NCBI GenBank assembly: GCA_903921365.1
Contig: CAIXPS010000380.1
Coordinates: 1 to 34,369, forward strand
Source: an uncultured bacterium
Lineage (GTDB): Bacteria > Chloroflexota > Anaerolineae > J036 > Brachytrichaceae
Direction of reading: 5' to 3'
Length of the DNA stretch: 34,369 nucleotides
This document shows positions 11,491 through 31,709 of this stretch, piece by piece (the stretch's first letter is position 1; the number at the start of each line of letters is the position of its first letter). A program made the position numbers and the translations under genes. The notes beneath the pieces are model-generated. The model made no database searches, was not told the DNA's origin, and worked only from the letters and a program-made list of their open reading frames with translations.

Positions 11491-13404
11491 TCACATCCGG
11501 ATCTGGGTCCGGTCATTGTTGACCCAGCGCTCACCCTGCCCGGATGCGAAGCGCAACTTCACGCCTAGATTGGCAATATCCCCTAATGTGATTTCGTCGC
11601 CATCCCGCAAAGGCACTTGAACCCCGACCTTCAATTTTGCGCCATTTACGCGCGTGCCATTGGTGGACCCATTGTCTTTGATCGTAAATTCGCCGGGCGC
11701 GGACATCTCCAGCACGGCATGGACGCCGCTGACCGTGCTTGGCTGTCCAGCATAAAAAGTCACATCACACTTCGGATCGCGTCCAATAACAATGCTAGGC
11801 TTAGTCAAGCGCACCTGCTCATTCGTCCTATTGGGCGGTCCCTGCAAGACGATCAAGGTTGCGAGCGCGGGCGCCGCAGGCGGCCCCTTACTCGATCCCT
11901 TCCCTCCACCTGGGGCTGATCTGCGTCGACGCGACAGAAGCAGAATCACAATCAGCAAGATGACTAAAACGACCACAACGGCGATGAGAATTGGGACGAT
12001 GGGCGTATCAGTGGGAATTACCGGCGTTGGTGTCGCAGTGGGAACTACTGGCGGCGCCACTTCAACCGTCACCCGCTCTTGCGCAGATGCCTCACTGCCT
12101 AACGCATCGACGACGCGAACCGTTAGCGTTGCAATATTCGCGCCCGGCTTGGTAATATCCGAGAGATCCGCCACCACCTCAAGGCTGGTTGTGCCGGGCG
12201 ACAAGTCTGCTGCTGTTTTAGTGTCTTTCACAACGCCATTCACAGAGAACTCGACTTTCTGTAACGCGCGCGTGATGTTATCCGTCCAGGCGACGTTTAC
12301 CTGCGCCCTGATGCTCAATGGGCTATATAGACTCTGAGTCGGAGAAGTTGCTGAGGCGCCCGGAAGCGGCGCGCGACGCAGGAATGTAGATTGTGGCGTC
12401 AGCGTCACCAGCGGTGGCGAGACAGTGACGTTGTACTCACCCGCGCGGCCTGTGTCTGGTTTCTCCGGGGACCCCACAGTGACTGTGCGCGCCCCGGAAG
12501 CGCCGGACGGGCTGACATAGGAGATTGTGTAATACTGGCGTTGAAATGCAAGTTGCTGGTAGATATCATCCATTGCGGCGCCGGCGGCATTGGGGACAAG
12601 CTTTACAAACTTGCCACTTGTGCCGACTGCTGCCAACTGCAAAGGCGGCTGGTCCGGGAGTGCGTTATCCGTTTGAACTGCATGGACGATGATGTATTTG
12701 GCTTTTGCATCAGATGCCGTGTTTTGAGCGCCGACGCTGGCAACGTTGGCTTGTGGATCCTCTATCGAACGCGCTATGAAAATGATCGCAGCGTCCTGGA
12801 TGCCTGGCTCCTTGACGATTTGATTCATCTCGCTGACTGCATCATCAATGCCCTTAAGACCTTTTGTGAGCCCTGCACTGCGCGGAAAAGTGTAGTTCGT
12901 GACAAAGTCAACAAACTCGCGCCCACGCGTTGTCGGCCCGACTTTGGACGTAGTGCGATCTCCCTGCCCGGGATTCTCGCGCACCAGTAGCTTAACGGTA
13001 TCACGGCCATCCACGAATGTCCCGCCATCCACCAGCCGCGTCATCGACTGTTTAAGCGCACCCAGTATGTTCTGGTAGTTTGACTGAGAACCCAGATCGA
13101 CGACGTAGACAATCGCAAGTGGGCCATCCGTATGCGGCGTCACGCGCACATCCTTTGCCGGGACTGGTTTCCCATTTTCAAAAACAGGCAGGTTGGCCGC
13201 GGTCAGATCCGGTATGGTATGGTTATTCGCGTCAATGGCGCGCAAGGTGAAACTGATTGCGGGGAACTTACTCGAATCCAAATTCGTGATGAAGTAAGTA
13301 TTGCTTCCCTGCGCCAGTAACGCAGGGGCACTCCCAAATAAACTGGCGAGCATCACCAGAACAAGAGCGACAACTGCTATCCAGTGGATGAGTTTAGTTT
13401 TCAT
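11491..13404 (-). CDS. Signal peptide-vWA-TM-FHA membrane protein (first of three paralogues)
   Basis: Extracellular vWA-like domain joined to a cytoplasmic FHA phosphopeptide-binding domain. A start at 13404 gives a clean signal peptide (MKTKLIHWIAVVALVLVM...LLAQ), whereas the longer frame from 13443 adds 13 polar residues and overlaps the upstream gene. The vWA-like region spans ~80-280; its metal site is degenerate (VVDLGSQ instead of DxSxS). An Ig-like segment lies at ~340-450. A TM helix at ~465-490 is followed by SRRRRS, which places the C-terminus inside. The FHA domain, ~530-620, keeps GRDPKCDV, VSGVHA and STNGTRVNG, so phosphothreonine binding is likely. It is the last gene of the ATPase operon. 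Binding partners are unknown; the nearby kinases are obvious candidates. Confidence 0.88.
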   Translation of the reverse strand: MKTKLIHWIAVVALVLVMLASLFGSAPALLAQGSNTYFITNLDSSKFPAISFTLRAIDANNHTIPDLTAANLPVFENGKPVPAKDVRVTPHTDGPLAIVYVVDLGSQSNYQNILGALKQSMTRLVDGGTFVDGRDTVKLLVRENPGQGDRTTSKVGPTTRGREFVDFVTNYTFPRSAGLTKGLKGIDDAVSEMNQIVKEPGIQDAAIIFIARSIEDPQANVASVGAQNTASDAKAKYIIVHAVQTDNALPDQPPLQLAAVGTSGKFVKLVPNAAGAAMDDIYQQLAFQRQYYTISYVSPSGASGARTVTVGSPEKPDTGRAGEYNVTVSPPLVTLTPQSTFLRRAPLPGASATSPTQSLYSPLSIRAQVNVAWTDNITRALQKVEFSVNGVVKDTKTAADLSPGTTSLEVVADLSDITKPGANIATLTVRVVDALGSEASAQERVTVEVAPPVVPTATPTPVIPTDTPIVPILIAVVVVLVILLIVILLLSRRRRSAPGGGKGSSKGPPAAPALATLIVLQGPPNRTNEQVRLTKPSIVIGRDPKCDVTFYAGQPSTVSGVHAVLEMSAPGEFTIKDNGSTNGTRVNGAKLKVGVQVPLRDGDEITLGDIANLGVKLRFASGQGERWVNNDRTQIRM

Positions 13405-13420
13405 GATGGCTTTGCATCCT

Positions 13421-15550
13421 TTAGGATTGGATGTGAAACTCAAGCTTCACTTTTGGCCCAAGACCAATAACCGATCGATCATCCAGACGTTCACGCCCGT
13501 TGTTTGGCAACCTCTTGCCGTTGACAAAGGTGCCATTAGTGCTATTGGCGTCCACAACATACCAGACGCCGCCCTCGTTCACAATTGACGCGTGTGATCC
13601 TGAAACGCCGCTCTGGCTATCCATCTTGATCACACCATCATTGCCATCGCGACGTCCAAGTGTGACACGCGCAGTTGAGATTTTCATCTGGAACTGGAGT
13701 GTTGCCGGCTCACGCGCGGCCAATGTAGCAGAGAAGCGAGTGGACGAGCCAGATTGGACAACCGGAGACTGGTTCATTGACTGTGAGACGCTTTCGGCCA
13801 ACGGGATAATGACCTGGGATCGATCCGACGCAGCCGCCTGGTGATGTCTGCGGTCCAGTTCAGGCTCAACAACCCGCACGTCGACACGTGAGCGCGCCCT
13901 TGCCACACGGATCAGAATGATGAAGCCGATCAGTGCCAGGAACGCCACAACAACCAGCACCACCACGGCAACTGACGACCGCCCGAGATCGTGCGCCAGT
14001 TTGTCAAAAAAGCCCGGACGTTCATATGTGACTGTGAAAGGCTTGGCCGCCTCAGCAATGATCTGGTTCGCGCCATCAAGTGCTTGAGCCTTGACCAGAT
14101 AAGCGCCAGAAGGCACGTCAGCGCCCGGGATAACGATCGGTAGATCTGGCGACTGGAAGGCTTCAGTTCCCGGGATTGGGCCACTGGCATTCTGACCACC
14201 AGACTGCTCAGGCTCAAGCCATGCCTTGTAGCGGGCAATCCCGGCAATGCCACCCGGGGTGGTTACAGTAACAACGAAGTTTGGCGCATCGAGCGATGGC
14301 GCGCTTACGGACGCAATCGCTATTTGCAATGGCGTCGGTTTGAACTGAAAATCGCGCGGGGTCGTGCGTGAAACAACGTTATTATTGGCGTCGACAGCAG
14401 CAATATCCAGCGTATAGCTGCCATCCTTGGCAAGGTTTGTCGCAGGAATGGCAAGTGATTCCTGCACATTCGGGAAGTCCAGGTTCAGGCTTGTCAGCCC
14501 AGTGGCCTTGTCGACCACCCGCGCCTGAAGTTTGGCGATCCTTGCGCGGTTCACAAGCGTCAGGTTCACAAGGATATTTCCCGGTGTCGTTCGCACTTCA
14601 CCGATCAGTTCGATCTTCGCCGGGGGTTCATATACTCTGTCAGACACAAAGGTGATCTGGCCCGGTAGCGCTGTCGTGTCTTTCAGCACCACCATGATAT
14701 CGACGGTTTGCTCGCCCTTTGGCGGGTACAACGTCCAATTGGCCTCCACCTGATTGGCCAGGCCGGAGAGCATGTTGCTCAGGCCAAAGATGAGATCATT
14801 CGGGCTGCGCACATAGGCAAGCCCCTTGCTCGGTTTGGTGTATTTTTCCAAGGTAGCCAGATTAACCGCGTAGCCATCAACTCCTAACGCGTGAATCTGA
14901 GTAGCGTGATTGACCGCCTCGTCAACAACTGCCTGAATCGAGGTGTTCGCGCAACCATCCTGACTCGCCGTAACCACAATGACCGCCTTACGCGTCGAGG
15001 CAGATTCCACGCGACGCACGGCTTCCAGCATACCGTCGTTCAGACATGGCTTAGCGCCGGTCTTGGCGTTCACCGCCGTCAACAGCTTCTTGCGCACTTC
15101 TTCTTTGTCCGACGTAAAGTCCTGGATCATTGTAGGAACTGTGTCGAATGTGACGATTGTGAAAAGTGCGTTATCGGGCATGCGGTCCAGCGACTTCGAC
15201 AACCCCTCAATCATGCGCCGGAAATCAGGAGAAGCAGCAAGTGTGCCGCTTGTGTCGACCAAAATCGATATAGCCATCTGTCCGGTCGGCTTGCCGAACG
15301 TTGCGGTATAGCGATCCTGCCCGATTTTGAGTTCGACATGATCAATATCGGCCGCGGCGGGCATACCGGCGCTATCGAGCACAGAAAACAACGTGCGAAC
15401 TTTCAATGCAGCCACACCATCTGCGCCTGCCTGTGCCGGTGTCGCCGTGGTATTGTGCACGTAAACTGCCGACGACCCGCCCTGGGCCATTAGCGATCCC
15501 GGATTGATCAACACGGCGATACAAAACGCCGTAACAAGTACCCGCTTCAT
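13421..15550 (-). CDS. Signal peptide-vWA-TM-FHA membrane protein (second of three paralogues)
   Basis: Same architecture as its neighbours. The signal peptide MKRVLVTAFCIAVLINPGSLMAQ is followed by a vWA domain at ~85-270 with the best-preserved metal-binding motif of the three (ILVDTSGT). Two or three beta-sandwich segments lie at ~280-500. A TM helix at ~525-550 precedes RVARARSR, so the C-terminal FHA domain is cytoplasmic. The FHA domain keeps LGRRDGNDG, VSGSHA and STNGTFVNG. GGAGG sits 4-5 bases before the ATG at 15550. The gene lies 15 bases after the third paralogue, in a tight operon. vWA domains bind protein ligands via a metal ion, so this copy is the most likely of the three to bind an extracellular partner. 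Its role in secretion is inferred from context only. Confidence 0.9.
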   Translation of the reverse strand: MKRVLVTAFCIAVLINPGSLMAQGGSSAVYVHNTTATPAQAGADGVAALKVRTLFSVLDSAGMPAAADIDHVELKIGQDRYTATFGKPTGQMAISILVDTSGTLAASPDFRRMIEGLSKSLDRMPDNALFTIVTFDTVPTMIQDFTSDKEEVRKKLLTAVNAKTGAKPCLNDGMLEAVRRVESASTRKAVIVVTASQDGCANTSIQAVVDEAVNHATQIHALGVDGYAVNLATLEKYTKPSKGLAYVRSPNDLIFGLSNMLSGLANQVEANWTLYPPKGEQTVDIMVVLKDTTALPGQITFVSDRVYEPPAKIELIGEVRTTPGNILVNLTLVNRARIAKLQARVVDKATGLTSLNLDFPNVQESLAIPATNLAKDGSYTLDIAAVDANNNVVSRTTPRDFQFKPTPLQIAIASVSAPSLDAPNFVVTVTTPGGIAGIARYKAWLEPEQSGGQNASGPIPGTEAFQSPDLPIVIPGADVPSGAYLVKAQALDGANQIIAEAAKPFTVTYERPGFFDKLAHDLGRSSVAVVVLVVVAFLALIGFIILIRVARARSRVDVRVVEPELDRRHHQAAASDRSQVIIPLAESVSQSMNQSPVVQSGSSTRFSATLAAREPATLQFQMKISTARVTLGRRDGNDGVIKMDSQSGVSGSHASIVNEGGVWYVVDANSTNGTFVNGKRLPNNGRERLDDRSVIGLGPKVKLEFHIQS

Positions 15551-15565
15551 GCAACCTCCATGTGT

Positions 15566-17524
15566 TTAGGCCTGCTTTATCTCCGCGCTTAGATCGGCAA
15601 AGTCGATCTTGTCGCCTACTTTGATCACACGCCGTTGTGCGGAGACGAGCCGTTCTCCATTTAACTTAGTGCCAGAGGAAGAGTTTAAATCCGTCACATA
15701 AATCACGCCGTCCTCCACACTGATGCGAGCATGCTTGCGCGAAACGAATTGGCTCACGATACGCACGGCTCCAGGACCTGGCTCAGGTTCACGGCCAATC
15801 GAGAGCGTGTCCATCCCGGTTGACCCGATTTCAAATCGTTTGCCGGCGTATTCGCCCTTGGTGAATTCAAGCACAGCCAGCGGCGCGTTTTGCGTAAACA
15901 TGATCGTGGCGCCGGCCAATGGTTCAGGCGCGCTCTGCGGTGGTGGTGAAACCTCGAACATCTGCGTGGGAAACGATGCCTGGCCCAAGGACGTTTTCGG
16001 GGAGTCAGCATAATTGTCGGCCGGGATCGCGCTTGATGCCGACCCCACTACCATGGTCTTCGGGGAATCGGAGACATAGCTATGCTGGCGTTGAGCCTTC
16101 CGGCGTGACAACAACACGATCAACATTATCAGCAAAATCAGCAACCCGACAAAGACAACGACAATCAGTATGCCAGGAAATGTTGTCAGTTGTTGCAGCA
16201 AAGTGGGTCCGGGCGTCGGCGTTATCGGAAGTGCCAAAGATGCGGGATCAATAGCAACCTGCACATCATAGGTCGTGACAGAGGCAGGATTGCCCTCTTC
16301 ACCTGCAGCCTTCAGCGTGATCTTTGTAACGCCGGTCAAATCGTTCGTCGCAATGACGAACTGGAATGGCGGTGTCGTCTCCCTGGTCGAGTTACCAGAG
16401 ACGATGTACTCAACGGCCTTAACGGGCTTTGCCGAGTCAACCTTGGGCTCGATAACGACCGACTTATTCGCCGGCAGCAACTTGGGATTTACGACAGCGC
16501 CGTCAATCGTAAAGGTCACCTTTGAGAAAGTCGGCTTAATCGGCGTCGCTGACATAAACGTTGCCTCATCAGAGGCAGTGCTTCCGCCTTGCGACACGCG
16601 GATATCGACGGTCTTTGCCTGTCCGTCACCAGGGACGCCCATGTTAAACGACACTTGATACTGCGTGCGCAGGTTCGATTCCATGCGTTTGAATATCTCA
16701 AGGACGTTTTGCAATTGCGCTGCCGATTCATACTGGCCGCCAGTTTGTGTCGCCAGCTTGCGGAGATAGTCTTCCTTCAGATCAGGACCCACACCGATTG
16801 TGAATACAGGCGTCCGATCCTTTGTTGCCCGCGCATAAGTATCTTCCTCAGTACAGCTCACGCTGCTGACGTCTCTGCCGTCAGTGAGCACGATAACGGC
16901 GCGTCGTCCAACGTTCTCCTGCGCAGCCACCATCAGCGCCTTGCATACCGCATCATACAGCGGTGTGTGACCGACAGCACTCAGCTTATTGATCAGGCTG
17001 ACCATATCGCCGCGCTTCTCACTGGCTGGCGCAAAGCCATATTCTGTTTGCGGGCTTAGCTGGGTATTAACAGCCACCGGGCCTGTGAGCGCAAGCACCC
17101 CCAGCCGGTCACTGTTGCTGGCAGCCTGCAGGATGGAGACCGAAGAGTCCTTCAGCGGCTGTAATGCTTCGCCTTGCCTGAGCATTCCAAAATCGACCAT
17201 GAGGAGAACACTCGCTTTCAGACTTGGGCTGATCACGCGGTTCACCTGGATATCTGAGAAAGTTTTGCTGCCCGCGACCACCTGGAACGACGTGGCATCC
17301 AGGTTCTGCAAAGGCACGCCGGCAGTGTTGACCGGCGTCACGGTGCAAACAATATCTGGATAATTCGAACTATCACAGCCATTCACGACAATCGTGATTC
17401 CGCCGCTCTGAGCCACCAGCATCCTTTGCGGGGTAACCAGAATGGTTACAAAGACGATCACAATGAGGGTGCGTATCTGATTGCGCAGACGGCGATACGC
17501 ACACGCGGGACTTGCGTTGATCAT
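15566..17524 (-). CDS. Signal peptide-vWA-TM-FHA membrane protein (third of three paralogues)
   Basis: N-terminal signal segment (RTLIVIVFVTILVTPQRMLVAQ), then a vWA domain at ~95-300. The first metal motif is lost (MVDFGML) but GHTPLYDAV and VIVLTDGRD are typical of vWA. An Ig-like segment lies at ~330-430. A TM helix at ~455-480 is followed by SRRKAQR, and a cytoplasmic FHA domain occupies ~560-650 (SIGREPEP, VSRKHARI, SSSGTKLNG). The start codon overlaps the stop of the upstream ubiquitin-like/FHA gene by one base (TAATG), which indicates translational coupling and suggests the two products act together. AGGTG lies 8 bases before the start. The degenerate metal site suggests a structural rather than metal-dependent vWA role. 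Confidence 0.9.
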   Translation of the reverse strand: MINASPACAYRRLRNQIRTLIVIVFVTILVTPQRMLVAQSGGITIVVNGCDSSNYPDIVCTVTPVNTAGVPLQNLDATSFQVVAGSKTFSDIQVNRVISPSLKASVLLMVDFGMLRQGEALQPLKDSSVSILQAASNSDRLGVLALTGPVAVNTQLSPQTEYGFAPASEKRGDMVSLINKLSAVGHTPLYDAVCKALMVAAQENVGRRAVIVLTDGRDVSSVSCTEEDTYARATKDRTPVFTIGVGPDLKEDYLRKLATQTGGQYESAAQLQNVLEIFKRMESNLRTQYQVSFNMGVPGDGQAKTVDIRVSQGGSTASDEATFMSATPIKPTFSKVTFTIDGAVVNPKLLPANKSVVIEPKVDSAKPVKAVEYIVSGNSTRETTPPFQFVIATNDLTGVTKITLKAAGEEGNPASVTTYDVQVAIDPASLALPITPTPGPTLLQQLTTFPGILIVVVFVGLLILLIMLIVLLSRRKAQRQHSYVSDSPKTMVVGSASSAIPADNYADSPKTSLGQASFPTQMFEVSPPPQSAPEPLAGATIMFTQNAPLAVLEFTKGEYAGKRFEIGSTGMDTLSIGREPEPGPGAVRIVSQFVSRKHARISVEDGVIYVTDLNSSSGTKLNGERLVSAQRRVIKVGDKIDFADLSAEIKQA

Positions 17525-18153
17525 TATCCAATCACCTGGAAACTCAGGGCAATGTTACCAACCTTGATCAAGGCGCCTGGAAGCAATGGATATCGTTCGC
17601 TGACGCGCATTTTAACGCCATCAAGGAGTGTGGGGTTGCGATCCTGAATCGATTCGATATAAAACGATCCTCCTTTTTCAGTGATCGCGGCATGGTGACG
17701 CGACACGCTGGGCAACGTCTCCAATTCCTCCAGGTCAACTGCCAGCAAGCGGTTATTCCTAGGATCCCGCACATCGCGACGACCCATGATGGCCGGATAC
17801 CAGCGCAAGTCATACTCCGACAGTGTCCGTTGCTCACTCAGATAAACGCGCGAAAAACGCTTGCTGAATGGCTGGCGCACACCGCGCGTAATCGCATCCA
17901 GGATGCCTGTCGACTCAACGATCTTTACCACCTGTAGCGCCGCTCCCTCAGAGACGCTCAGTTGGTCGAGGGCTGAATCAACCGGGAGGGGGGTGCGCGA
18001 TCCCCGCATCAGCAAGTTGTAACTGCCGTCGAGGTTAAACTTGTCTTTGATTGTCGCGACAAGCGTCGCGACTTGCAAAGTGCCACGCACATTCACCCGC
18101 CGCGAACCGATGCTATTCGCCTGTATATCCAGGGTCAGATTGAGTCTGTCCAT
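17524..18153 (-). CDS. Soluble ubiquitin-like (EsaB/YukD-type) plus FHA fusion protein
   Basis: Residues ~3-77 resemble a ubiquitin-like fold: LNLTLDIQ strand, hairpin, VATLVATIKDKF helix, and a final GAALQVVKI strand. This is the type found alone as EsaB/YukD and at the N-terminus of EccD in type VII systems. Residues ~115-209 form an FHA domain with IMGRRD, VSRHHAAI and NPTLLDG, so the phosphothreonine pocket looks intact. There is no signal peptide or TM helix, so it should be cytoplasmic. The ATG abuts the ATPase stop (TAAATG) with GGAGG 8 bases upstream, inside the ATPase reading frame, indicating coupling to the motor. The FHA call is firm; the ubiquitin-like call rests on pattern only. 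In EssC the FHA domains are on the motor itself, whereas here they may be supplied in trans. Confidence 0.8.
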   Translation of the reverse strand: MDRLNLTLDIQANSIGSRRVNVRGTLQVATLVATIKDKFNLDGSYNLLMRGSRTPLPVDSALDQLSVSEGAALQVVKIVESTGILDAITRGVRQPFSKRFSRVYLSEQRTLSEYDLRWYPAIMGRRDVRDPRNNRLLAVDLEELETLPSVSRHHAAITEKGGSFYIESIQDRNPTLLDGVKMRVSERYPLLPGALIKVGNIALSFQVIG

Positions 18154-21100
18154 TTATTTAGCCTCCAGATTCCCAGAGTTTTGCAAATTCTGGGAATCCG
18201 CCTTGACACTGTTCGCAGGGGCAGTCTCCGCGCCTTGCGGTTGCCCATTGACACCCGTGACACCTGCGGCTGGTGTATCAGGCACTTCATAGGTAACCGA
18301 TGCCATCCGCGACATATCTATAGTGGGGATGGCGTCGAAGCTCGGAAGCCCCTTGAGCAGATCTGCCATCAACTGGTCTGGATCAGGCAATTGATCAGAA
18401 GGTGTAGGCTGGGCTAACGCATCACCAGGGGCGCCCGCTGCTGCCGTTGTGCCGCCGGCAGCTTGTGTTGTGTCATCACCCTTGATAGCCTGATCCAGGA
18501 CAGTTGTATCCTTCGCCCAGTAACTCCACTGCGCGCGCTGCGGATAAGCGTCACGAATGGTTTGAATCATCTGGGTTACCTGCATCTCACTATCAGGGCG
18601 CCCCTCGGCGCAGGGCACAGCCATCTGGGTCATGGCTGCCGAAACTGCCCTGACCATGAAGCCGCGCCCCGGGGGCAGTTCCTTTGTAACCGAGAATTGG
18701 CCGCGAACACCCATGTATCGGACAGCCTCCCAGTCATTGAACACGTAGGCATAGCGCGATCCTTCAACCCGCTTGCGCAGGTCATCCATACCGCTGCGCA
18801 TCGCATTAATCGTGCCGCTCATGACAATGTGCAGGTTCTTGCCCTTGCCTATCTCGCCAAGTTGTGACATCGGCTGGGTTTTGCGGTTAATCGGCTCAAT
18901 GTCATCATAGTGATCGATCAAGACAATGATATGACGCTTGTTGTTGTCCTGCGGGTTATACCACTCCGATTTTCCACTTAAGCGAGCGATCACTTCTTCG
19001 TCGTACTCCGCGCGCAACCGCCGAACGACTTCATCCATCTCCTTCGAGGTCGAAACAGTTGCTAGAACGTGTGGCAGCTTATCCAGGCGGTTCTCGTTAC
19101 CCTGCGCATCCGTCGTTCCCATGCCGTAGTTGTAGAAGCGGCGCGATGGATCAGAGGGATCGACCAGGATCAGCCCGACTGTGTCCGGCGGGTAGCTGTA
19201 TGCAAGCGACAAAACAAGCGCGCGCATGCTGGTTGTCTTGCCAGTGACAGGCGGCCCCATCATCATCCAGTGCGGACCCTTCGCGCCCAATTCGAGCATC
19301 ATTGGCTCGCGATCGAGATCGTTGATGCCAAGCGGCACACTGATCTTCGGGTCGCCCTGCCCCAAAGCGGGCAACAACGTCGCAATTTCGATCACCTTTG
19401 GCAGCGGTTCCACAGGCCGGGGGCGCCTGGACTTGAGTGATGGATCCTTTGACTCCAGTTTCGCCCAGGCCTGAGCCATCGTCTGTGTCAAAATGCGGAA
19501 GTAGTCAGTTTGATCGGACGGATCGCCACTCATTGGGATGGCAGTATGAAACTCCAGGGGCATTGGCTTTTCGTCTACTAACCCGACACAGATGCCGCGG
19601 CCAGGCGTGTCGTTGATGCGCGGGGCGCCACGCCCGACAATCGACATGTAATCCATGCGTTCCGATTGTGTAAAGGTGACGCGTTGGTTCAGCAAGCTCA
19701 TCATCTTGCCAGTGATGTCGCCGAGTAATGAAGCAGTCAGAACAAAGTACACGCCGAACGAGCGGCCATCGCGCAGAAGTGACAACAGATCCGGCAGATA
19801 CTTGTCGTAGGTTTCCTTAAACTCCACTGCGTTGTCGACGACAACCACGATTGCCGGTAGCGGCGCCGACGCGTTGCGGGCCTTGTAGTCTTCCATCGAA
19901 TCGTACGATGCCAACTTCTGCTGCCGATCGTCGATGATATTACGGATCATGCGCATAAAGCGTTCGACGCGCTCTTCTTCGTTCGTCTCGACAATGCCTC
20001 CGATATGCGGTAGAGGTCGCAACGCCTTCAAACCACCCCGTCCGAAATCGAGCACATAGATATGCAACTCATCAGGACGGTGACTCGCTGCGAGTGACAA
20101 GAGCAACGACTTGACAAAGGTCGTCTTGCCGCGACCGCTTGCGCCGAACACGATGAGCGGGTCGCCAGTCAGGTCGACGTTCATCAGGCGTTGCTCAGCC
20201 AGCAAAGTGTTGTCCACGATGCCGACATTTGCGTTCACTGGCAGCGGTTTCGACCAGTCATGCGACTGCCAGATTGGCTCAGCCGCCTGATTATTGTCCA
20301 TCCACACAGCGATATCGGGGTTGATGACAATTTGCTTGCCATACTTACCTTTGGCAATATACTCGGCGTTGACTGAGAGGTTCAGCGGGAGTCTATCCGC
20401 CAACGGACTCGGCCAGGGCTTGAACTGCTTGGGAATGGACTGCCGTTTGGCCTCAGCCGCCAGCGCGCCAACCAACCAGCCCAGGAGGGAGCGCGGCGCA
20501 TCAGTTGTTTCGAGCGCGGACAGAATCTCATCGACGTTGTAACGCGGATCTGGTTTTGTTTCATCGTAACCCGCGCCGATATAGGCAACCTGAATTTCAC
20601 TCAGGTTGCCACCGCCTACCTGCACATAACCGCGACCAGGAATCGCGGGGAGTGTGGCTGCATCGGGTCGTCCGATCATTTCCTTACTGTCGTCGGCAGT
20701 TTCCACTCTCAGGCTGATCTTGTACTTCATGTTCGCCCGCATCTGGTCAGTCACGGCGCCACTGGGTCGCTGGGTTGCCAGAAGCAGCGATACGCCGAAC
20801 GAGCGACCGAGACGAGTGATGCTCTCGAACTTAGCCTTGTACTCAGGGTTCTGCGTCACCATTTCTGCGAACTCGTCCACAATAATAAACAGGTGTGGGA
20901 ACGTGTTCGGGAACGGTGAATCCGGTTTGAGCGTAGGGATGACCTTCTTGCGATAATCGACCAGATCCGCAACGCCCGCCCTGGCTAGAATTTCGGAGCG
21001 CCGGTTCATCTCAGCGTTGATGGCCGTGAAGATGCGCTCAACGGCATTGCCTTCGAGGTTCGTTGCAAGATCGACGCAGTGCGGCAAACGCCGGAAGGGC

Positions 21101-24100
21101 TCCACAGTCGGGCCGCCTTTGTAGTCAATCAGCACAAAGTTAACGATGCGCGGATCATACTTAATCGCCATACTGGCGATCAGCGTCTGCAGCATCTCAG
21201 ATTTACCGGAACCCGTTGTGCCCGCAGCCATGCCATGCACGCCGTCACCGCCGGCTTTGGCATTGAAGATCATGGTGCGGACTTCCTTGCTGCTGATCAG
21301 ACCGAGCGGCGCGCTCAACCATTCCTGGTTGGCCTGCTGCATACTGCGCGCCCACATCTCCTGAATGCCCAGGTCGCCAATGCGATCCATGCGCTTACCC
21401 TTGACGAGCTGCATCATTTCGAGGAAGGTGATTGCCTTGGGTATATCCGCACTGGGGCGTTTTCCGCCCACAGACGCCCAGGCGTCCTCCATGCGCTCCG
21501 CTACCTTTGTGAACGCATCCTTCTCGGCGCCCATTACCGGTATGCCGATGTGGAATTCCAGCGGCTGACCCTCGATGTTGATCAGACCGCGACCGGGAAT
21601 ATTGGATAAAGGCAGCGCGCCCTTCCCCACAATATCGCTGTATTGCGATGTGTCAGCCATTGTGAAGGCTAACCGCACCGCGAGCAGGTTGAAGAGTTTG
21701 TTAGGCACATCATTGATCTGGTTGGCCGTGATGATAAACGAGATGCCAAACTGCCGACCGTCGCGCACGAGCGCAACTAATTCAACTAACAAAGGTTCAT
21801 AGTTCTCGCGGAACTCGGCGAAGTTATCGATCACAACCATCACAGAAGGAAACATCATCTCGGGGCTGTCTTTATGCTGCTGGTTAAAATCTTCCAACGA
21901 AGCATATTTCGACAGACGCTCCTGACGCTCATTCATCAGGCTGCGCACCATGCGGAACAGCGCGGCCACTCGGTCGGGCTGGCTGGCATCGATGGAGGCG
22001 CCGCAGTGAGGCAACCGCGTCACTGCGCGCAACCCGCCACGACCGAAGTCGAGCAGGTACATATTGAGTTCAGCCGGGGAACGTTGCGCAGCCAATGCAA
22101 ATAACATGGATTTGACAAAGGTGCTCTTGCCGCGTCCGCTGGCGCCGAACACAACGATTGGGTCGCCGCCGCCATCCAGCGTCAAGCGGCGCTGGTTCGA
22201 ATGGAATGGATCGTCAACCAACCCGATTGTTGCCTTCAGCGGCAACGGCGAATTCCAGTCATGCGGCGTCCACAGATCGTACTTCTGGAAATCGCCAGGG
22301 GTCGCCAGTTCAGGACTCGCCCACTTGGCGATGGCAGGATTAAGAACGACTGTGTCGTCCTTCAGTTCGGGCAGATAACTGGCATCAAGCGCCTCGTTGA
22401 TTGGCAGCTTTTCCGGCAGTGGATCTGGCCATGGCTTGAATTGCTTGGGGATGCCCTGCTTATGCGCTTCAGCCGCCAGTGTGCCCACAAGCCAACCCAG
22501 CAGCGATCGCGGCGGATCGTTTTGCTTTTCCAACGCAGCGAGCACTTCTTCAGCAGGATACTCAGGATCGTTGCGGGCCAGGTCGTATGGGGCGCCACTC
22601 CATGCCACTTGCACTTCGGTCAGCGTATCGCTCCCAGCCTGGACATAGCCGCGTCCAGCGATCTGCGGCAGGCGCGCGGCATCGGGTTTCTTAAGTAGTT
22701 CCTTGCTATCCTCGGCCGTCTCCATGCGCAGGGCAAGGCGATACTTCATGTTAGAGCGCATCTGATCGCTGACGACGCCGGTGGGGCGTTGCGTCGCTAG
22801 AAGCAATGAGACACCAAACGAACGACCCAGGCGTGTGATGCTTTCAAACTTGAGTTTGTATTCAGGGTTCTGCGCCACCATCTCGGCAAACTCGTCGACG
22901 ATGATAAACAGATGTGGGAATGTAGTTGGGAGCGGTGAATCCGGCTTAAGCCCTGGGATAACCTTCTTGCGATACTCAACCAGGTCCGAAACACCAGCCT
23001 TTGCAAGAATCTCGGAGCGGCGGTTCATTTCGGCATTGATGGCGATGAAGATACGATCGACCGCATTGCCTTGCAGGTTTGTCGCCATGTCAACACAATG
23101 CGGCAACTTGCGGAATGGCTCGATGGTGGGCCCGCCTTTGTAGTCGATCAGGACGAAATTGACGATGCGCGGATCATAGCGGATAGCCATCGCGCTGATC
23201 AACGTCTGCAACATTTCAGATTTACCAGAACCCGTAGTGCCGGCAGCCATGCCATGCACGCCATCGGCCTGGGCCTGGAACACCAGCATGCGCAGGTCTT
23301 TGCTACTGATCAAACCGAGCCAGGCGCGCAACCATTCCTGATTGGCTGGCTGCATGCTCTTGTTCCACTTGCCTTTGATGTCAAGGTCGCTGATGCGCAC
23401 CATGGGCTTCTTCTCTGCAAGTTCGAACATCCCCAATAGCGTCAATGAGCGCGGCAACTCGGCGCTGGGTCGCTTACCGCCCAGAGCTGTCCAGACGCGA
23501 TCCATACGCTGGGCGATCACCTGAAAATTGTCGATCTGATCGCTGGAGGTGGATTCCTCATGGCGGCCGGGCATTCCAATCTGGAACTCCAGCGGCAATG
23601 GCTTTTCGCCTTCCTTAATGGAGACAGCAATCAGTCCGCGCCCTGGAACGTTGTCAAAGTTGCGCGAACCCGACCCGACGATCTCAGTATAGATGGAGCG
23701 ATCGCTCTGGGTCATTGTCAGACGAACCGTAAACAGGCTCAACAACTTACTCGGCACGTCGTTCAGGACAGTTGCAGTGATGACGAAGTACACGCCAAAA
23801 GCGTGACCATCTCTGACCAGGCTGATCATCTCGGGGATGAGATGCTCGTAGCTTTCCTTGAATTCGGCGAAGTTGTCAACCACAACCACAATCTCCGGCA
23901 ACACATTTTCCGGGTTCTTCGCATTGTAGTCGGCGAGTGAATTGAACTGCGCCAGGCGCTCCTGGCGCTCAACCACGAAGCTGCGCAACATGCGCATCAA
24001 TTGTTCAACGCGAGCTGTTTCACCTGCGTCAATGGAGGCGCCAAGGTGCGGCAGTCCGGTAATCGCCTTCAACCCGCCACGGCCAAAGTCAAACGCATAC

Positions 24101-26934
24101 ATGTGCAGAGAGTCGGGCGAGCGCCGTGAAGCCAGCGCCACCAGGAGCGACTTAAGGAAGACTTTCTTACCGTGCCCGGAGCCACGGAACACTACGATTG
24201 GTTCGCCGGACACATCGAGGTTGAGGATGCGCTGCTCAGCCTTGTAAGGGTTATCGATCAGACCGATCTCAGCGCGCAACGGCGTCTGGTTCTTCCAGTC
24301 GTATGGTTTCCAGAGCGGCTTCTCTTCGGTATTCTCAAACCAGGCTTCCATCGGTTCGTTGATCGTGATCTGCTCATTGATCACCGTGCGTTCGGTGTTA
24401 AGAAACTTGGCGTCGACTGGACTGGTAAGCGATAGAAACTCGGGCAGTGGATTGGGCCACGGCTTGGTTTGTAAAGGCACACCGTCGCGCCTGGCGCGAA
24501 TTGCCGCAACGCCAACGGCCCAATCCAGAACGGTCTTGGGCAACTCGCCAGGTTTCATGCCGAGCGCCTCTGCAACTTCGGAGCCAGTGTAATCTGGCAC
24601 GTCGCCGGGATTCACAACAGGGACGGACTCCTCGTCCAGCCAGATGACATCTTTCAGTGCGACGTTGCGATCGTCGGTATAGGGGCCGCCGGCCCAGGCA
24701 ACCTGTACTGGGGTCATTAATTCATTGCCGCTTTGCACGTATCCGCGACCACCGATGTTTGGCAGGAAGGCGGCGTCGGGTGAGCCAAGCAACTCCTTGC
24801 TGTCATCCGGCGTTTCCACGCGCAGACAGATGCGGAACTTCATATTGGCGCGCATCTGGTCAGAGACGACGCCCGCGGGACGTTGTGTCGCAAGCAATAG
24901 CGACACACCAAAGGCGCGACCCAGGCGTGTGATGCTCTCAAACTGCCGTTTATACTCAGGATTAGCCTGGATCATCTCGGCAAACTCATCGACGATGATA
25001 AACAGGTGCGGGAATGTGCGTGGGCGCGGGTCTTCTGGCGACAGCCGTGGGGCAACCTCGGAGCGGTACTTGACCAAATCACTCACACCGCTCTTCGCGA
25101 GCAATGTGGAACGTTCCTCCATCACTGCCTGAATAGCGACGAACATGCGCTCGACGGCGCTGCCTTGCAGATTGGTGAGGATATCAACCACATGCGGCAG
25201 CTTGCGAAATGGCTCAAACGCCGCGCCACCCTTATAGTCCACGAGCACGAAATTGACAACGCGCGGATCATAGCGAATCGCCATGCCGGCGATCAAGGTC
25301 ATCAGCAATTCAGATTTGCCAGAACCGGTTGTGCCGGCGATCATGCCATGCACGCCATCACCGCCTTCCTTGGCAGAGAACACCAAAGTGCGCACATCCT
25401 TCATGCTGAGCATGCCGATTGGGACGCTGAGCCAATCCTGGTTCTTGGGGACAACGCTACGCGTCCAGTCTTCTTTGTAGGGTAGTTTGTCGACGGTGGC
25501 AATCTTGCGTTGCTCGACCACCGACTGCATCTGCAAGAGGGTCACCCCATGCGGCAGGTCAGAACCAAATGGACGCACCAGATCGAGCCGGCGCAGCAGC
25601 GACGCAAACTTCTGGCGGGCGTCCATCGCATTCAACTGGTCGGCCTGTCCCAGATAGCGTGGTGTATTCAAGCCGATTTCGGTATAACGAAAAACGATGC
25701 GCGCGCCGACAGACGCGACTTCCGTCATGGCCAGACAATCGCCAGGCACCTGCCCAGAGGTGTTTGTCAGGAATATAATGCCTGCCCCCAGTGTCGGGCC
25801 GTTCTTTATAATGGTTGCCACGGCAGCTTCAGCAGCAACATCCTTTAAAGGTGAGTTGTCGGGGATATCACCGAGTGTGTCAACCACCACGAGCAGGAAT
25901 GGCAGTGAAATATCTGAGCCGCCTTTCTTCCCATCCTTTTCCTGGCCATCACGCATACGGATCTGGCGCTGGTCTAATTCCTTTTTAATCCTGCGCCAAA
26001 ACGCGCCAACTTTGTCTTTTTCATTGGAGAAGACAAGCTGGTCGTAATCTTTGGGCCGACCGGTATCGTCATCGCCAATGTTGCGCACGAAACAGTGGGG
26101 CAACCACTCAGCCCATTCCCAACCGTTGTGCGCGGTTGGGCTGCCAAGCACGAACACGCGCGCTTCCTGGGGTGAATGGAAAGCGGTGAAATGAGCGATC
26201 ATCGCGTGCGCAGCATCCGCGACGTTCGTCGCGTTGCGGCCATACACGCCAATGGCATGACGGGAGGGAATTGCCACTTCATTTGAGCCAGGCGCAAAAT
26301 AAGGTCGCAGGGGTATGGTGATCGTGGCGTCGGTCAGCACCCGAGAGTCCTCGGCCAGCCGTTGTGCGTCCTTAAACAGCGAGACACTGCGGCCTTCGGT
26401 GGGCGCTGAGGCGCTGTCGCCGATTTTATAAATGACTGTAGATGGGCGGCTGCCTGAACCAAGTCTGACTGCGCAAAAATCAAGGTCTGTAGGACGGCGT
26501 TCCCAGATGCGCGGGCCGAAACGGCTGTTTTCCTTGCGCGCCGCAATTGAGATGAGCGTATCAATGTCAGGGTAGTTGTATTGGTAAAAGATGCGCTGGC
26601 TGGTGTGCGCCTGGGTCATTTCCTGGCGCATTTGCAGCAACAACTCTGCATAGGCTTTTTCTTTGGCCGCCTGATCCTGCTTATCCTTGGCGCGTTGGTA
26701 AAGCGCCAGAGCGATAGAAGCAACGACGGCCAGCGCCATTGGCAACACAAATGCAATGGCGCCTGTGCCTGAGGCAACCAGAAACCCGACGACCGAGATC
26801 AACGGCATGAGAGTCGTCAACACTTGTCCGGATGAATTTTGATTTTTCGGATCCGGAGGTTTGGGTATTTCAACTTCACGTATTGGCAGTTCAGGCTGTA
26901 TTCGCGGAGGTCTATCAATATACTCAATTGCCAT
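18154..26934 (-). CDS. Giant EccC/EssC-type FtsK/SpoIIIE secretion ATPase with seven P-loop modules
   Basis: Motor of a type VII (WXG100) secretion system. The N-terminus (RPPRIQPELP...PKPP, two TM helices at ~38-58 and ~60-79) and FGPRIWERRPTDLDFCAVRLG match EccC. Seven P-loop modules follow, with Walker A at ~534, 917, 1232, 1597, 1905, 2264 and 2560. Modules 1, 3 and 5 have GTTGSGKS and IIVDEFAEM. Modules 4 and 6 have GASGRGKS/T but DN in Walker B. Module 2 is degenerate (RGSGHGKK). Module 7 has GPPVTGKT and LIDH. Known EccC/EssC proteins have three modules in ~1,300-1,500 residues; this one has ~2,926. The last ~125 residues are a polar, low-complexity tail. The ATG at 26934 follows CAGGGTG; a GTG at 26964 lacks a well-placed site. 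It heads the operon with the FHA proteins. Confidence 0.95.
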   Translation of the reverse strand: MAIEYIDRPPRIQPELPIREVEIPKPPDPKNQNSSGQVLTTLMPLISVVGFLVASGTGAIAFVLPMALAVVASIALALYQRAKDKQDQAAKEKAYAELLLQMRQEMTQAHTSQRIFYQYNYPDIDTLISIAARKENSRFGPRIWERRPTDLDFCAVRLGSGSRPSTVIYKIGDSASAPTEGRSVSLFKDAQRLAEDSRVLTDATITIPLRPYFAPGSNEVAIPSRHAIGVYGRNATNVADAAHAMIAHFTAFHSPQEARVFVLGSPTAHNGWEWAEWLPHCFVRNIGDDDTGRPKDYDQLVFSNEKDKVGAFWRRIKKELDQRQIRMRDGQEKDGKKGGSDISLPFLLVVVDTLGDIPDNSPLKDVAAEAAVATIIKNGPTLGAGIIFLTNTSGQVPGDCLAMTEVASVGARIVFRYTEIGLNTPRYLGQADQLNAMDARQKFASLLRRLDLVRPFGSDLPHGVTLLQMQSVVEQRKIATVDKLPYKEDWTRSVVPKNQDWLSVPIGMLSMKDVRTLVFSAKEGGDGVHGMIAGTTGSGKSELLMTLIAGMAIRYDPRVVNFVLVDYKGGAAFEPFRKLPHVVDILTNLQGSAVERMFVAIQAVMEERSTLLAKSGVSDLVKYRSEVAPRLSPEDPRPRTFPHLFIIVDEFAEMIQANPEYKRQFESITRLGRAFGVSLLLATQRPAGVVSDQMRANMKFRICLRVETPDDSKELLGSPDAAFLPNIGGRGYVQSGNELMTPVQVAWAGGPYTDDRNVALKDVIWLDEESVPVVNPGDVPDYTGSEVAEALGMKPGELPKTVLDWAVGVAAIRARRDGVPLQTKPWPNPLPEFLSLTSPVDAKFLNTERTVINEQITINEPMEAWFENTEEKPLWKPYDWKNQTPLRAEIGLIDNPYKAEQRILNLDVSGEPIVVFRGSGHGKKVFLKSLLVALASRRSPDSLHMYAFDFGRGGLKAITGLPHLGASIDAGETARVEQLMRMLRSFVVERQERLAQFNSLADYNAKNPENVLPEIVVVVDNFAEFKESYEHLIPEMISLVRDGHAFGVYFVITATVLNDVPSKLLSLFTVRLTMTQSDRSIYTEIVGSGSRNFDNVPGRGLIAVSIKEGEKPLPLEFQIGMPGRHEESTSSDQIDNFQVIAQRMDRVWTALGGKRPSAELPRSLTLLGMFELAEKKPMVRISDLDIKGKWNKSMQPANQEWLRAWLGLISSKDLRMLVFQAQADGVHGMAAGTTGSGKSEMLQTLISAMAIRYDPRIVNFVLIDYKGGPTIEPFRKLPHCVDMATNLQGNAVDRIFIAINAEMNRRSEILAKAGVSDLVEYRKKVIPGLKPDSPLPTTFPHLFIIVDEFAEMVAQNPEYKLKFESITRLGRSFGVSLLLATQRPTGVVSDQMRSNMKYRLALRMETAEDSKELLKKPDAARLPQIAGRGYVQAGSDTLTEVQVAWSGAPYDLARNDPEYPAEEVLAALEKQNDPPRSLLGWLVGTLAAEAHKQGIPKQFKPWPDPLPEKLPINEALDASYLPELKDDTVVLNPAIAKWASPELATPGDFQKYDLWTPHDWNSPLPLKATIGLVDDPFHSNQRRLTLDGGGDPIVVFGASGRGKSTFVKSMLFALAAQRSPAELNMYLLDFGRGGLRAVTRLPHCGASIDASQPDRVAALFRMVRSLMNERQERLSKYASLEDFNQQHKDSPEMMFPSVMVVIDNFAEFRENYEPLLVELVALVRDGRQFGISFIITANQINDVPNKLFNLLAVRLAFTMADTSQYSDIVGKGALPLSNIPGRGLINIEGQPLEFHIGIPVMGAEKDAFTKVAERMEDAWASVGGKRPSADIPKAITFLEMMQLVKGKRMDRIGDLGIQEMWARSMQQANQEWLSAPLGLISSKEVRTMIFNAKAGGDGVHGMAAGTTGSGKSEMLQTLIASMAIKYDPRIVNFVLIDYKGGPTVEPFRRLPHCVDLATNLEGNAVERIFTAINAEMNRRSEILARAGVADLVDYRKKVIPTLKPDSPFPNTFPHLFIIVDEFAEMVTQNPEYKAKFESITRLGRSFGVSLLLATQRPSGAVTDQMRANMKYKISLRVETADDSKEMIGRPDAATLPAIPGRGYVQVGGGNLSEIQVAYIGAGYDETKPDPRYNVDEILSALETTDAPRSLLGWLVGALAAEAKRQSIPKQFKPWPSPLADRLPLNLSVNAEYIAKGKYGKQIVINPDIAVWMDNNQAAEPIWQSHDWSKPLPVNANVGIVDNTLLAEQRLMNVDLTGDPLIVFGASGRGKTTFVKSLLLSLAASHRPDELHIYVLDFGRGGLKALRPLPHIGGIVETNEEERVERFMRMIRNIIDDRQQKLASYDSMEDYKARNASAPLPAIVVVVDNAVEFKETYDKYLPDLLSLLRDGRSFGVYFVLTASLLGDITGKMMSLLNQRVTFTQSERMDYMSIVGRGAPRINDTPGRGICVGLVDEKPMPLEFHTAIPMSGDPSDQTDYFRILTQTMAQAWAKLESKDPSLKSRRPRPVEPLPKVIEIATLLPALGQGDPKISVPLGINDLDREPMMLELGAKGPHWMMMGPPVTGKTTSMRALVLSLAYSYPPDTVGLILVDPSDPSRRFYNYGMGTTDAQGNENRLDKLPHVLATVSTSKEMDEVVRRLRAEYDEEVIARLSGKSEWYNPQDNNKRHIIVLIDHYDDIEPINRKTQPMSQLGEIGKGKNLHIVMSGTINAMRSGMDDLRKRVEGSRYAYVFNDWEAVRYMGVRGQFSVTKELPPGRGFMVRAVSAAMTQMAVPCAEGRPDSEMQVTQMIQTIRDAYPQRAQWSYWAKDTTVLDQAIKGDDTTQAAGGTTAAAGAPGDALAQPTPSDQLPDPDQLMADLLKGLPSFDAIPTIDMSRMASVTYEVPDTPAAGVTGVNGQPQGAETAPANSVKADSQNLQNSGNLEAK
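19320..25443 (-). repeat. Three tandem two-module ATPase units inside the giant motor gene
   Basis: Each unit begins with an NQ[DE]WL...LG segment, at 25443, 23343 and 21330 on the minus strand, giving periods of 2,100 and 2,013 bases. Each unit holds a strong P-loop module (GTTGSGKSE, then DYKGG and VDEFAEM) followed by a second one (DFGRGGL[KR]A and DN[FA]xEF). The third unit runs to about 19320, where the different seventh module begins; that border is approximate. Unit-to-unit similarity is obvious at protein level. Confidence 0.9.
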
Positions 26935-29348: not shown

Positions 29349-30584
29349 TTAACCACTAACTGATTTAAATAGCGGTGATACCGCATTCTTTGCAAACTGG
29401 CCGGTAGCAAAACTACCCAGCCCACCGGCTGCGCCACCCTTTTTTGCAAACAACAAACCACCCGCAGACGCACCCACCATTAACACTACCTCCATAATCG
29501 GCGCGCCCGCGCCTGCCGCCTTTAGCGATCCACCTAGAACCGCCGCGCCTAGTGAACCGGCAGTGTCGCCGCCACCAAAGACCCCTCCCGAACCAGCAGC
29601 GCTTTGCGCGGCATCTTTGGCCACCATCCCTTGCTGGCCGCCAACATCGCCGCTGCCGCCGCCGGCGCCCATGCTGCCGCCTGCGCTTGGGCTCTGATCA
29701 CCACTACCGCCGCCACCGCCGCCACCACTAGACTGAGTTTCTGGTTTCGCATCCGTTGCAGGCGCCGAAGCGGCGCCGCTCCCGCTGCCACCACCTGACC
29801 CAGAACCGCCACCCGAGGAGCCGCCTCCACCACTGCCGGCGCCTGCGCCTCCGGCGTCGGCTTCTTGCTTATCCCAACTGGCGCTTGCGAGATCGGATTG
29901 ACCTGCAAGATCAGACTTGACTGCATCCAGAATCTCCTGGCTGGGAAAGTCTGAATCGGAGTCAAAGCTGCTGGCGTCGAAAGCACTGCCACTGCCGGAG
30001 GCCAGTAAATCGCGCGCATTATGAATCTCGTCCACGAACTGATCGATCTTGTCGTCGCCTGTTGATAGACCGTCGGCTGATGAACCGCCTGTATCCCCCA
30101 GGCCAAGCATCTGACTCAACCACGCGGGCAAGTTGATTGAGATGGCTGTGCCCGCGCCTGCGCCACCACCCGCCGATGCACCTGAACCACCAGCGCCACC
30201 GCCTGCTCCGCCGCCGCCCACACCGCCACCGCTTGACGCCGACATCCCATCGACAGTCTTTCCAGCGGCAGCCGCTGCGGCGCCTTTTTGAAATATAGAA
30301 CTGGCGCTGTTTTCGGTACTCTGCATCAGTTCACGAATTGCATTTGTTACCTGCGCAGCCATTTTCAGCGCATTGATGAGACGGCGATAGGCCGGGATAA
30401 TCCCAGACTCCATTTCGGAATAGAACGCCTGCGCGCCCTGGCCGATCCAGTCTCCACCATGTAATAGCTGCTCTTTCTGCGTCAAATCACGCAGCGAACG
30501 CTCTGTAGACTCCGCCTGCTGGTCAAACAGTTTGGAGATTTTTGAGAGTTGATCGTAATCGGCACGTATTTTGGGCGCCGGCAT
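29349..30584 (-). CDS. WXG100 domain fused to a long Gly/Ser-rich chain with hydrophobic C-terminus
   Basis: Residues 1-100 are a WXG100 helical hairpin with GGDWIGQGAQAFY; W46-I-G48 falls at the same position as in the small protein encoded at 31742. The next ~310 residues are Gly/Ser/Ala-rich with one more ordered acidic part (~165-240, KIDQFVDEIHNARDLL) and a C-terminal hydrophobic stretch (~365-390, PIMEVVLMVGASAGGLLFA) that could insert in a membrane. WXG100 domains fused to long tails are typical of type VII effectors or surface components; no toxin domain is recognised. The second ATG (30584) is used because GGAGG is 7 bases from it and only one base from the first. A terminator separates it from the small WXG100 genes upstream. 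Confidence 0.85.
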   Translation of the reverse strand: MPAPKIRADYDQLSKISKLFDQQAESTERSLRDLTQKEQLLHGGDWIGQGAQAFYSEMESGIIPAYRRLINALKMAAQVTNAIRELMQSTENSASSIFQKGAAAAAAGKTVDGMSASSGGGVGGGGAGGGAGGSGASAGGGAGAGTAISINLPAWLSQMLGLGDTGGSSADGLSTGDDKIDQFVDEIHNARDLLASGSGSAFDASSFDSDSDFPSQEILDAVKSDLAGQSDLASASWDKQEADAGGAGAGSGGGGSSGGGSGSGGGSGSGAASAPATDAKPETQSSGGGGGGGSGDQSPSAGGSMGAGGGSGDVGGQQGMVAKDAAQSAAGSGGVFGGGDTAGSLGAAVLGGSLKAAGAGAPIMEVVLMVGASAGGLLFAKKGGAAGGLGSFATGQFAKNAVSPLFKSVSG

Positions 30585-30672
30585 TGACATACCTCCGGTT
30601 GCGCGACTGCGCCGGGCGGGGACAGAAAGTACTTAAGCCGCACCAGGCACGCTATGCAAACCACCAAACAAC

Positions 30673-30717: not shown

Positions 30718-31032
30718 CTACAGGGCCAATTCGCCTTCGAAATAATGCTTGCCCTCAACGTCACCCTTGCGGTGATCGCCGATTGCCTGGGCGAGGTTCT
30801 GGCTGAACCACGTGCAAGCCTTGGAGAGCTTCTCGACTTTCTGCTTAATAACGGTAAGGTACTGAGCCAGTGCCGCAGTAGTGCCAAAGCTGAAGATTGC
30901 CGTCGCGCGCAGGATATCAATTGCGATTTCGAGCGCTTTACCCACGCCATCGAGCATTTCGGCTGAGGTTTGAAAACCCTTTGAAACGCTGCCGATGATC
31001 GAGTAATCCATTTGAACAACTTGTCCGGCCAT
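30718..31032 (-). CDS. Small WXG100-like helical protein without the WXG turn
   Basis: A 104-residue protein predicted to be two helices: ~12-45 (GSVSKGFQTSAEMLDGVGKALEIAIDIL) and ~55-85 (ALAQYLTVIKQKVEKLSKACTWFSQNL). No WxG sits between them; the turn reads FSFGTTAA. The C-terminal tail contains HYFEGE, which fits the YxxxD/E secretion signal known for mycobacterial type VII substrates. Size, position between WXG100 genes and helical pattern support an ESAT-6-type partner. AAGGAG lies 9 bases before the ATG. It might pair with one of the WIG-containing neighbours, as heterodimers are usual in this superfamily. Confidence 0.7.
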   Translation of the reverse strand: MAGQVVQMDYSIIGSVSKGFQTSAEMLDGVGKALEIAIDILRATAIFSFGTTAALAQYLTVIKQKVEKLSKACTWFSQNLAQAIGDHRKGDVEGKHYFEGELAL

Positions 31033-31075: not shown

Positions 31076-31393
31076 TTATATACCGCCAAACACGTCGCCA
31101 ATCTGGCTTGCCATGCCCTGAACCTTCTGATCAGCCGCGTCAACGGTGCTGGTCACGTCACTCAGGTTGAGGTTGAAACCGGCGATCGCCGCGATCAACT
31201 CCGCAATTGCGGGCAACAACTTGGTTACAACTTTCTCTGCGAATGCCTCTGCGTCACCGCCGATCCAGGCCTGTCCAACGATGTTGGGGTAACCCGAGAT
31301 TGTCGAGTGCACGTTCGAAGTAACGCCGTGGGTCATTTTGATAATCGAGCTGGACTGCTCCACTTTCTCGCGGATAAACTGGAATACTGACAT
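31076..31393 (-). CDS. WXG100 family protein (ESAT-6-like)
   Basis: A 105-residue helical hairpin with the turn QAWIGGDAEAFAEKV (W43-I-G45), the hallmark of the WXG100 family. Helix 1 is ~3-38 and helix 2 ~47-100. Family members are exported as dimers by the FtsK-type motor and can be effectors, adaptors or pore components. AGGAGG stands about 9 bases upstream of the ATG. The first helix is less charged than in the other two WIG proteins, and it is not simply a copy of the protein encoded at 31742. It belongs to the minus-strand run of substrates. Confidence 0.88.
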   Translation of the reverse strand: MSVFQFIREKVEQSSSIIKMTHGVTSNVHSTISGYPNIVGQAWIGGDAEAFAEKVVTKLLPAIAELIAAIAGFNLNLSDVTSTVDAADQKVQGMASQIGDVFGGI

Positions 31394-31418: not shown

Positions 31419-31709
31419 TTAAGCAAAGCGAGACTGCGCCGTCTGAACGCCATCCCGGATCTTCTCAACCGCGCCATCAATGTTCTTGCTCATGTCCTGC
31501 ATGCTCTGATCGATATCCTTGAGCTTGGGCTGGAGCTTGCTCTTGATTGCCTCGCGGAAAGCATCTCCGCCGGCGCCGGTCAACGCACCGCCCTCCATCT
31601 GAGTGGCGATCTGATCCATCACCTTCGTCATTTCCTGGACTTGCTGCGAAGCCTTTTTAAACGAGTCGGACATTGCCTTCATCGACTCGTAATTCATTCT
31701 CTGATCCAT
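31419..31709 (-). CDS. WXG100-like protein with a variant LTG turn
   Basis: A 96-residue protein of two long, charged helices (~8-38 and ~48-90) joined by GGALTGAGGDAFREAI. L43-T-G45 replaces WxG, while the GDAF that normally follows is kept. Rich in Met and Gln (SMKAMSDSFKKASQQVQEM). A start at 31709 is chosen because GGAGG lies 9 bases upstream; the frame from 31730 places the ribosome site inside the gene. It is 26 bases from the next gene in the operon. It probably forms a heterodimer with a WIG-containing neighbour, as CFP-10 does with ESAT-6, but the pairings cannot be read from the sequence. Confidence 0.82.
   Translation of the reverse strand: MDQRMNYESMKAMSDSFKKASQQVQEMTKVMDQIATQMEGGALTGAGGDAFREAIKSKLQPKLKDIDQSMQDMSKNIDGAVEKIRDGVQTAQSRFA

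Follow-up and report, generated by a model that had tools for sequence, protein, structure and literature searches.

The window analyzed here, a stretch of 34,369 nucleotides from an uncultured Chloroflexota bacterium, contains on its minus strand a single open reading frame (26934–18154) of 2,926 codons counted from an ATG, which is surrounded by genes for FHA proteins, kinases and small WXG100-like proteins (Table 1). An alternative GTG start is found at 26964, with which the frame would occupy 18154-26964. The ATG at 26934 is an invariant column in an alignment of 13 homologues, is followed by the motif (I/Y)(D/E)RPPRIQPELP and has AGGGTG just 5' of it. Judged from this alignment, it is the conserved start of the gene and is used by the homologues too. 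An earlier note on this DNA had proposed seven ATPase modules in one frame of about 2,926 residues without stating the strand. The frame was found to be intact, and seven stretches of its product were matched by Pfam FtsK_SpoIIIE (538 bits).

The best NCBIfam match of the protein was TIGR03928 EssC (1564 bits vs. a cut-off of 778), which spans residues 17 to 1160. The protein also matched TIGR03924 EccCa (1042 bits, cut-off 509; residues 36-762 over model positions 7-673) and TIGR03925 EccCb (812 bits, cut-off 347), and its best solved relatives were EccC 4nh0, YukB and EccC5. With the EssC/EccC models all above their cut-offs, the type VII secretion system (T7SS) identity given in the earlier note is upheld, and the protein is almost certainly an EccC/EssC-family membrane ATPase of a Chloroflexota T7SS. 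Its identification as an FtsK DNA translocase was rejected, as the PRK10263 FtsK model scored only 177 bits vs. a cut-off of 1566. The fold of the single modules is like that of FtsK/SpoIIIE DNA translocases (Z about 30), which have one motor module per chain and different partners.

Table 1. Features of the window around the seven-module motor gene.
Feature	Positions	Strand	Remarks
Seven-module EccC/EssC-type ATPase gene	18154..26934	-	2,926 aa from conserved ATG; GTG alternative 26964
N-terminal region: RPPRIQPELP start motif, two predicted TM helices, stalk, DUF domain	25528..26934	-	TIGR03928/TIGR03924 matches; EccC3 TM/DUF chains at residues 47-298
D1, odd	24493..25527	-	GTTGSGKS, IIVDEFAE, ITRLGR
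D2, even	23461..24327	-	Degenerate Walker A RGSGHGKK; Walker B VVVDNFAE
D3, odd	22465..23427	-	GTTGSGKS, IIVDEFAE
D4, even	21448..22287	-	GASGRGKS, VVIDNFAE
D5, odd	20449..21414	-	GTTGSGKS, IIVDEFAE
D6, even	19435..20292	-	GASGRGKT, VVVDNAVE
D7, terminal module	18565..19407	-	GPPVTGKT, VLIDHYDD
FHA protein directly 3' of motor	17524..18153	-	209 aa; same place in nearly all relatives
Membrane pseudokinase, C-terminal TM helix	27202..28383	+	Adjoins motor in nearly all relatives
WXG100 protein	31742..32116	-	
WXG100 protein	31419..31730	-	
WXG100-like protein	31076..31393	-	AWIGG; sub-threshold
Fourth small helical protein of quartet	30718..31032	-	Weak EspC-like match
WXG100 domain with 300-residue Gly/Ser-rich tail	29349..30590	-	Candidate substrate
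Three FHA proteins, two of them VWA-FHA	11491..17524	-	
PP2C phosphatase, secreted-looking 399-aa protein, three Ser/Thr kinases, sensor kinase-response regulator	788..11473	+	

Residues 11-479 of the motor comprise two hydrophobic helices, a stalk and a DUF domain, which is ATPase-like but degenerate, is familiar from EccC (PMC11154593) and precedes D1 in all EccC/EssC proteins; the EccCa model extends across this region and on into D1. The modules that follow are ordered (odd–even)×3–last. Comparison of module with module yielded two families, with 58-74% mutual identity among D1, D3 and D5 and 43-51% among D2, D4 and D6, and a distinct D7; between the odd type, the even type and D7, identity is only 19-27%. 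This agrees with the earlier claim that the module 1-2 pair is present three times before a single terminal module. Successive odd modules have their Walker A motifs 698 and 673 residues apart, close to the periods of about 700 and 671 residues given before. Seven modules stood as proposed; the seven P-loops, however, were found to be six canonical ones and one degenerate (RGSGHGKK in D2). The odd-even linkers are roughly 55 residues long, while the even-odd junctions are short (~12 residues), like the even-last junction. Published EccC/EssC motors have the three modules given in the earlier note, plus the DUF (PMC11217815, PMC8131196). Counted with the DUF, the protein is thus DUF+7 instead of the usual DUF+3, a variant of the EccC/EssC family, (D1-D2)×3-D3 instead of D1-D2-D3, and not a standard member.

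Homologues of more than 2,500 residues, for which the earlier note had suggested a search, are numerous. Among 298 genomes of the same class, 13 had complete frames of ~2,890-3,019 codons with EssC matches, and others had ordinary EssC frames of ~1,270-1,560 codons. A scan of GTDB genome contigs with peptides typical of the seven-module motor's family, which tested other phyla only indirectly, identified 75 loci, all labelled as Chloroflexota or a lineage within it except two, one labelled only "bacterium" and the other Melainabacteria (L100). The latter is apparently mis-binned, as it is identical to L081 in module positions and scores. The complete frames included 43 distinct seven-module proteins (the window, 39 of L066-L130 with L100 merged into L081, L046, L143 and L144; repeat records were counted once), 15 three-module proteins and one five-module protein, and none with nine. 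One frame of 2,482 codons without D7 (L092) was left aside. In a plasmid collection, the ten best matches were all EccC/EssC of canonical length, spanning 2.8-4.0 kb, with no seven-module form among them. The seven-module motor is also found in Herpetosiphon giganteus, H. geysericola, H. llansteffanensis and the cultured H. aurantiacus DSM 785, whose genome is complete. Thus, the seven-module form is an established Chloroflexota architecture and not a one-off.

The three pairs of the window motor share 53–59% protein identity and 60–62% DNA identity, and at such DNA divergence the tandem copies are not assembly errors. Most of the matches are metagenome-assembled genomes, which would suit an assembly or gene-fusion artefact, the outcome that the earlier note had held would undo its claim. 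Given this divergence, the 43 distinct complete frames and the many independent genomes, that of H. aurantiacus DSM 785 being complete, we consider such an artefact excluded for all practical purposes. The only five-module protein (L087, JADZBY010000131.1) has a D1 and a D3 that are 86% identical as DNA; it may be a recently formed two-pair protein or else a collapsed assembly from which a third copy was lost, and with the latter possible we do not claim it as a proven intermediate. A seven-module protein on long branches (L143, G514:C109; 2,897 codons) has intact odd modules but decayed D6 and D7, both without a Walker A motif by the pattern used. It may belong to the Herpetosiphon clade and have evolved fast, although its position is unsure.

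Catalytic motifs were surveyed in 41 complete seven-module proteins, the window included, which provided 123 odd and 123 even modules. In all 123 odd modules, Walker A retains its Lys and its Ser/Thr, Walker B its Asp-Glu pair and ITRxGR its Arg. None of the even modules had the catalytic Glu, Asp-Asn being found in 117 of 123, while 121 of 123 retained the Walker A Lys. The chain is therefore predicted to alternate hydrolysing (odd) and non-hydrolysing (even) modules, and on these motifs each chain probably has three competent odd sites.

The seven- and three-module loci of Chloroflexota have in common the four small WXG100-like proteins and the pseudokinase-TM protein on one side of the motor and the FHA protein on the other; further out, kinases, PP2C, VWA and FHA proteins are common. 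Such near-identical clusters suggest that the membrane complex is unchanged. The pseudokinase has a cysteine-rich N-terminus, HLS, HLN or HLC stands in place of its HRD motif in all relatives shown, and its DFG motif reads DLG or DYG. Its layout is analogous to that of EssB, whose functional counterpart it may be. By eye, the first half of the 209-residue FHA protein appears ubiquitin-like, a reading not borne out by any YukD match. In the source genome, four WXG100 matches exceeded the Pfam cut-off, three of them in the window, and no other EssC-type motor was over the cut-off. Outside the window there is a single WXG100 gene (G000:C172; L003, L014), and a 1,000-residue FtsK-like protein encoded ~5 kb away from it is possibly a second WXG100-linked ATPase. 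At 32450-34369, next to the cluster on its WXG100 side, are two tyrosine-recombinase genes (336 residues; 286 residues, with the frame still open where the window stops), and short tandem repeats with periods of 18-30 bp are found on the kinase/PP2C side at 525-603, 2020-2158 and 9856-9925.

We know of no Chloroflexota system with demonstrated secretion. The N-terminal arrangement of TM helices, stalk and DUF followed by FtsK/SpoIIIE modules is that of EccC of the T7SSa (ESX-1 to ESX-5; Thermomonospora curvata 4nh0 and Mycobacterium tuberculosis EccC5), from which the protein differs in having seven modules instead of three. EccB gave no match in the source genome, in a search that had no positive control, as no control genome was matched. 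The WXG100 proteins and the membrane pseudokinase beside the motor resemble the arrangement of EssB beside EssC in the T7SSb of Bacillota, while the seven modules differ from EssC/YukB. FHA domains, which EssC of the T7SSb carries at its N-terminus, were absent from the motor among the 25 Pfam families listed out of 38; an FHA domain is encoded on a separate protein. YukC/EssB, EsaA and YukD had no family-level match in the source genome, although the Bacillus subtilis control was positive; the pseudokinase-TM and FHA proteins may be analogues of the T7SSb partners. The motor, WXG100, kinase, PP2C phosphatase, FHA and VWA genes also occur together in the T7SSc-T7SSj clusters of Bacillota and Actinomycetota. 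The motors reported for those clusters all have four NTPase domains (DUF+3), and Chloroflexota are not represented among them (PMC11217815). The three-module Chloroflexota relatives (e.g., L116-L120 and L132-L139) have the same start motif, closely related modules and the same neighbours, but one pair in place of three. The system appears to be a separate T7SS type of Chloroflexota, in the spirit of T7SSc-j. WXG100 proteins of Chloroflexi have been mentioned in passing (PMC3935865, PMC4010439, PMC10765036). The earlier note had allowed that the protein might belong to a subclass already described. The architecture is indeed widespread in Chloroflexota, but in the open-licence literature no description was found of an EccC with more than DUF+3 modules or of a T7SS in Chloroflexi, Chloroflexota or Herpetosiphon. 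What appears to be new is the seven-module (DUF+7) form; the T7SS motor family itself is known, with DUF+3 in the published subtype survey (PMC11217815).

Maximum-likelihood trees (LG+C20+F+G4) were built from the odd modules, the even modules and the single-copy N-terminal region. In all three, the seven-module proteins formed three well-supported clades: clade A with the window, clade B with Herpetosiphon and clade C with a few others such as L082, L083 and L091. The three-module relatives fell between these clades in the odd and N-terminal trees. Forcing all multi-pair proteins together cost 73 log-likelihood units for the N-terminus (AU p = 3.7e-5) and 75 for the odd modules (AU p = 0.0013), and the pairwise unions A+B (p = 0.0067), A+C (p = 0.025, the weakest) and B+C (p = 0.0011) were rejected as well, p values that are somewhat optimistic because the groups were named after a preliminary tree. 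With a single origin rejected, the tripling probably occurred more than once; the trees point to at least two independent events and probably three.

Within each clade, the odd modules branch as ((D3,D5),D1) and the even modules essentially as ((D2,D4),D6). As the internal copies D2-D3 and D4-D5 are mutually closest, the simplest path, and a likely one, is the same each time: the pair was duplicated first and then an even-odd block (D2-D3, giving D4-D5), as would result from unequal crossing-over. Alternatively, D1 and D6 may have diverged through their contact with the DUF and D7, respectively. The recurrence of one topology in all three clades would also be expected from a single ancient tripling, after which lineages repeatedly fell back to three modules and gene conversion acted among the copies, and the five-module protein, with D1 and D3 86% identical, illustrates that copies can be homogenised or lost. 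This history is improbable, however: it needs several separate losses as well as homogenisation in each stem, three- and seven-module proteins are intermingled in the tree of the single-copy N-terminus too, and placement of all D1 modules in one clade was rejected (p = 6e-53).

The explanation that best accommodates the observations as a whole, to which we give about an even chance, is a T7SS motor whose catalytic/regulatory D1-D2 pair was tripled between the DUF and the terminal module. In such a motor, each odd module would hydrolyse ATP, while each even module would bind nucleotide without hydrolysis, as D2 of EccC, and would gate the preceding odd module via the odd-even linker. WXG100-type substrates would be recognised by the even and last modules, displacing the linkers. 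The chains, probably six, would be held together by the kind of TM-DUF base that ordinary EssC uses, and their cytosolic part would form a long chamber with as many as seven discs where EssC has three, in which three catalytic tiers would drive or gate longer substrates. Three discs are seen in contracted EccC5 of ESX-5 (PMC8131196). The six-chain stack is favoured because the N-terminal base and the partners are unchanged; this stacked chamber by itself we hold only tentatively, at a little under an even chance. AlphaFold models built on 41 sequences overlaid on EccC 4nh0 over 812 residues for D1-D2-D3 (pLDDT 84.8, pTM 0.63; Z 36, rmsd 6.9 A) and over 797 residues for D5-D6-D7 (pLDDT 87.5; Z 35.6, rmsd 7.9 A), an rmsd of 7-8 A meaning that the domain placement is only roughly alike. 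D3 of the model occupies the position of the third EccC module, a placement that, of the two mechanisms put forward in the earlier note, leans towards stacked rings rather than a ring from fewer subunits; the linear 4nh0 chain is not a ring in the crystal, so the overlay says little on rings.

A simple longer stack does not predict exactly three pairs in each clade. This number leans weakly towards a 2×3 pseudo-hexamer, in which two chains would supply six odd modules for a catalytic ring and six even modules for a second ring, the modules being covalently linked in the manner of dynein; three chains of two pairs, as in the five-module form, would also make six. The pair counts in complete proteins are only 1, 2 and 3, all divisors of six and never four or more, and all odd modules have the Walker motifs and the conserved Arg that neighbours in a mixed ring would need. 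If so, three lineages would have arrived independently at three pairs, since a ring can close only with a divisor of six. We nevertheless regard such two-chain rings as unlikely, since the single-copy TM-DUF and the unchanged partners would then imply a membrane base of two chains instead of six, the short even-odd junctions resemble the even-last junction, the model places D3 at the site of the third EccC module and not beside D1, and at the DNA identity observed the copy number may simply be frozen.

The added pairs might instead be a substrate-handling arm, in which more linkers and binding sites capture several WXG100 complexes without extra rings. According to the title of entry 4n1a, a signal-sequence peptide is bound by ATPases 2 and 3 of EccC, and four WXG100-like proteins are encoded in the clusters. 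The same four are present in the three-module relatives, however, and every added odd module keeps all the catalytic residues, which pure binding would not need, so that this role seems rather unlikely.

Mobility of the cytosolic string in ordinary EccC/EssC has left unsettled how the T7SS ATPase modules assemble and which of them hydrolyse ATP. The finding adds a Chloroflexota T7SS type outside the Bacillota and Actinomycetota surveys, in which the catalytic unit has been tripled in nature, probably more than once, with all three sites kept, and thereby provides a natural test of motor assembly. As cultured Herpetosiphon carries the seven-module motor, chain stoichiometry and site-by-site mutation could separate the ring, stack and substrate-arm models.
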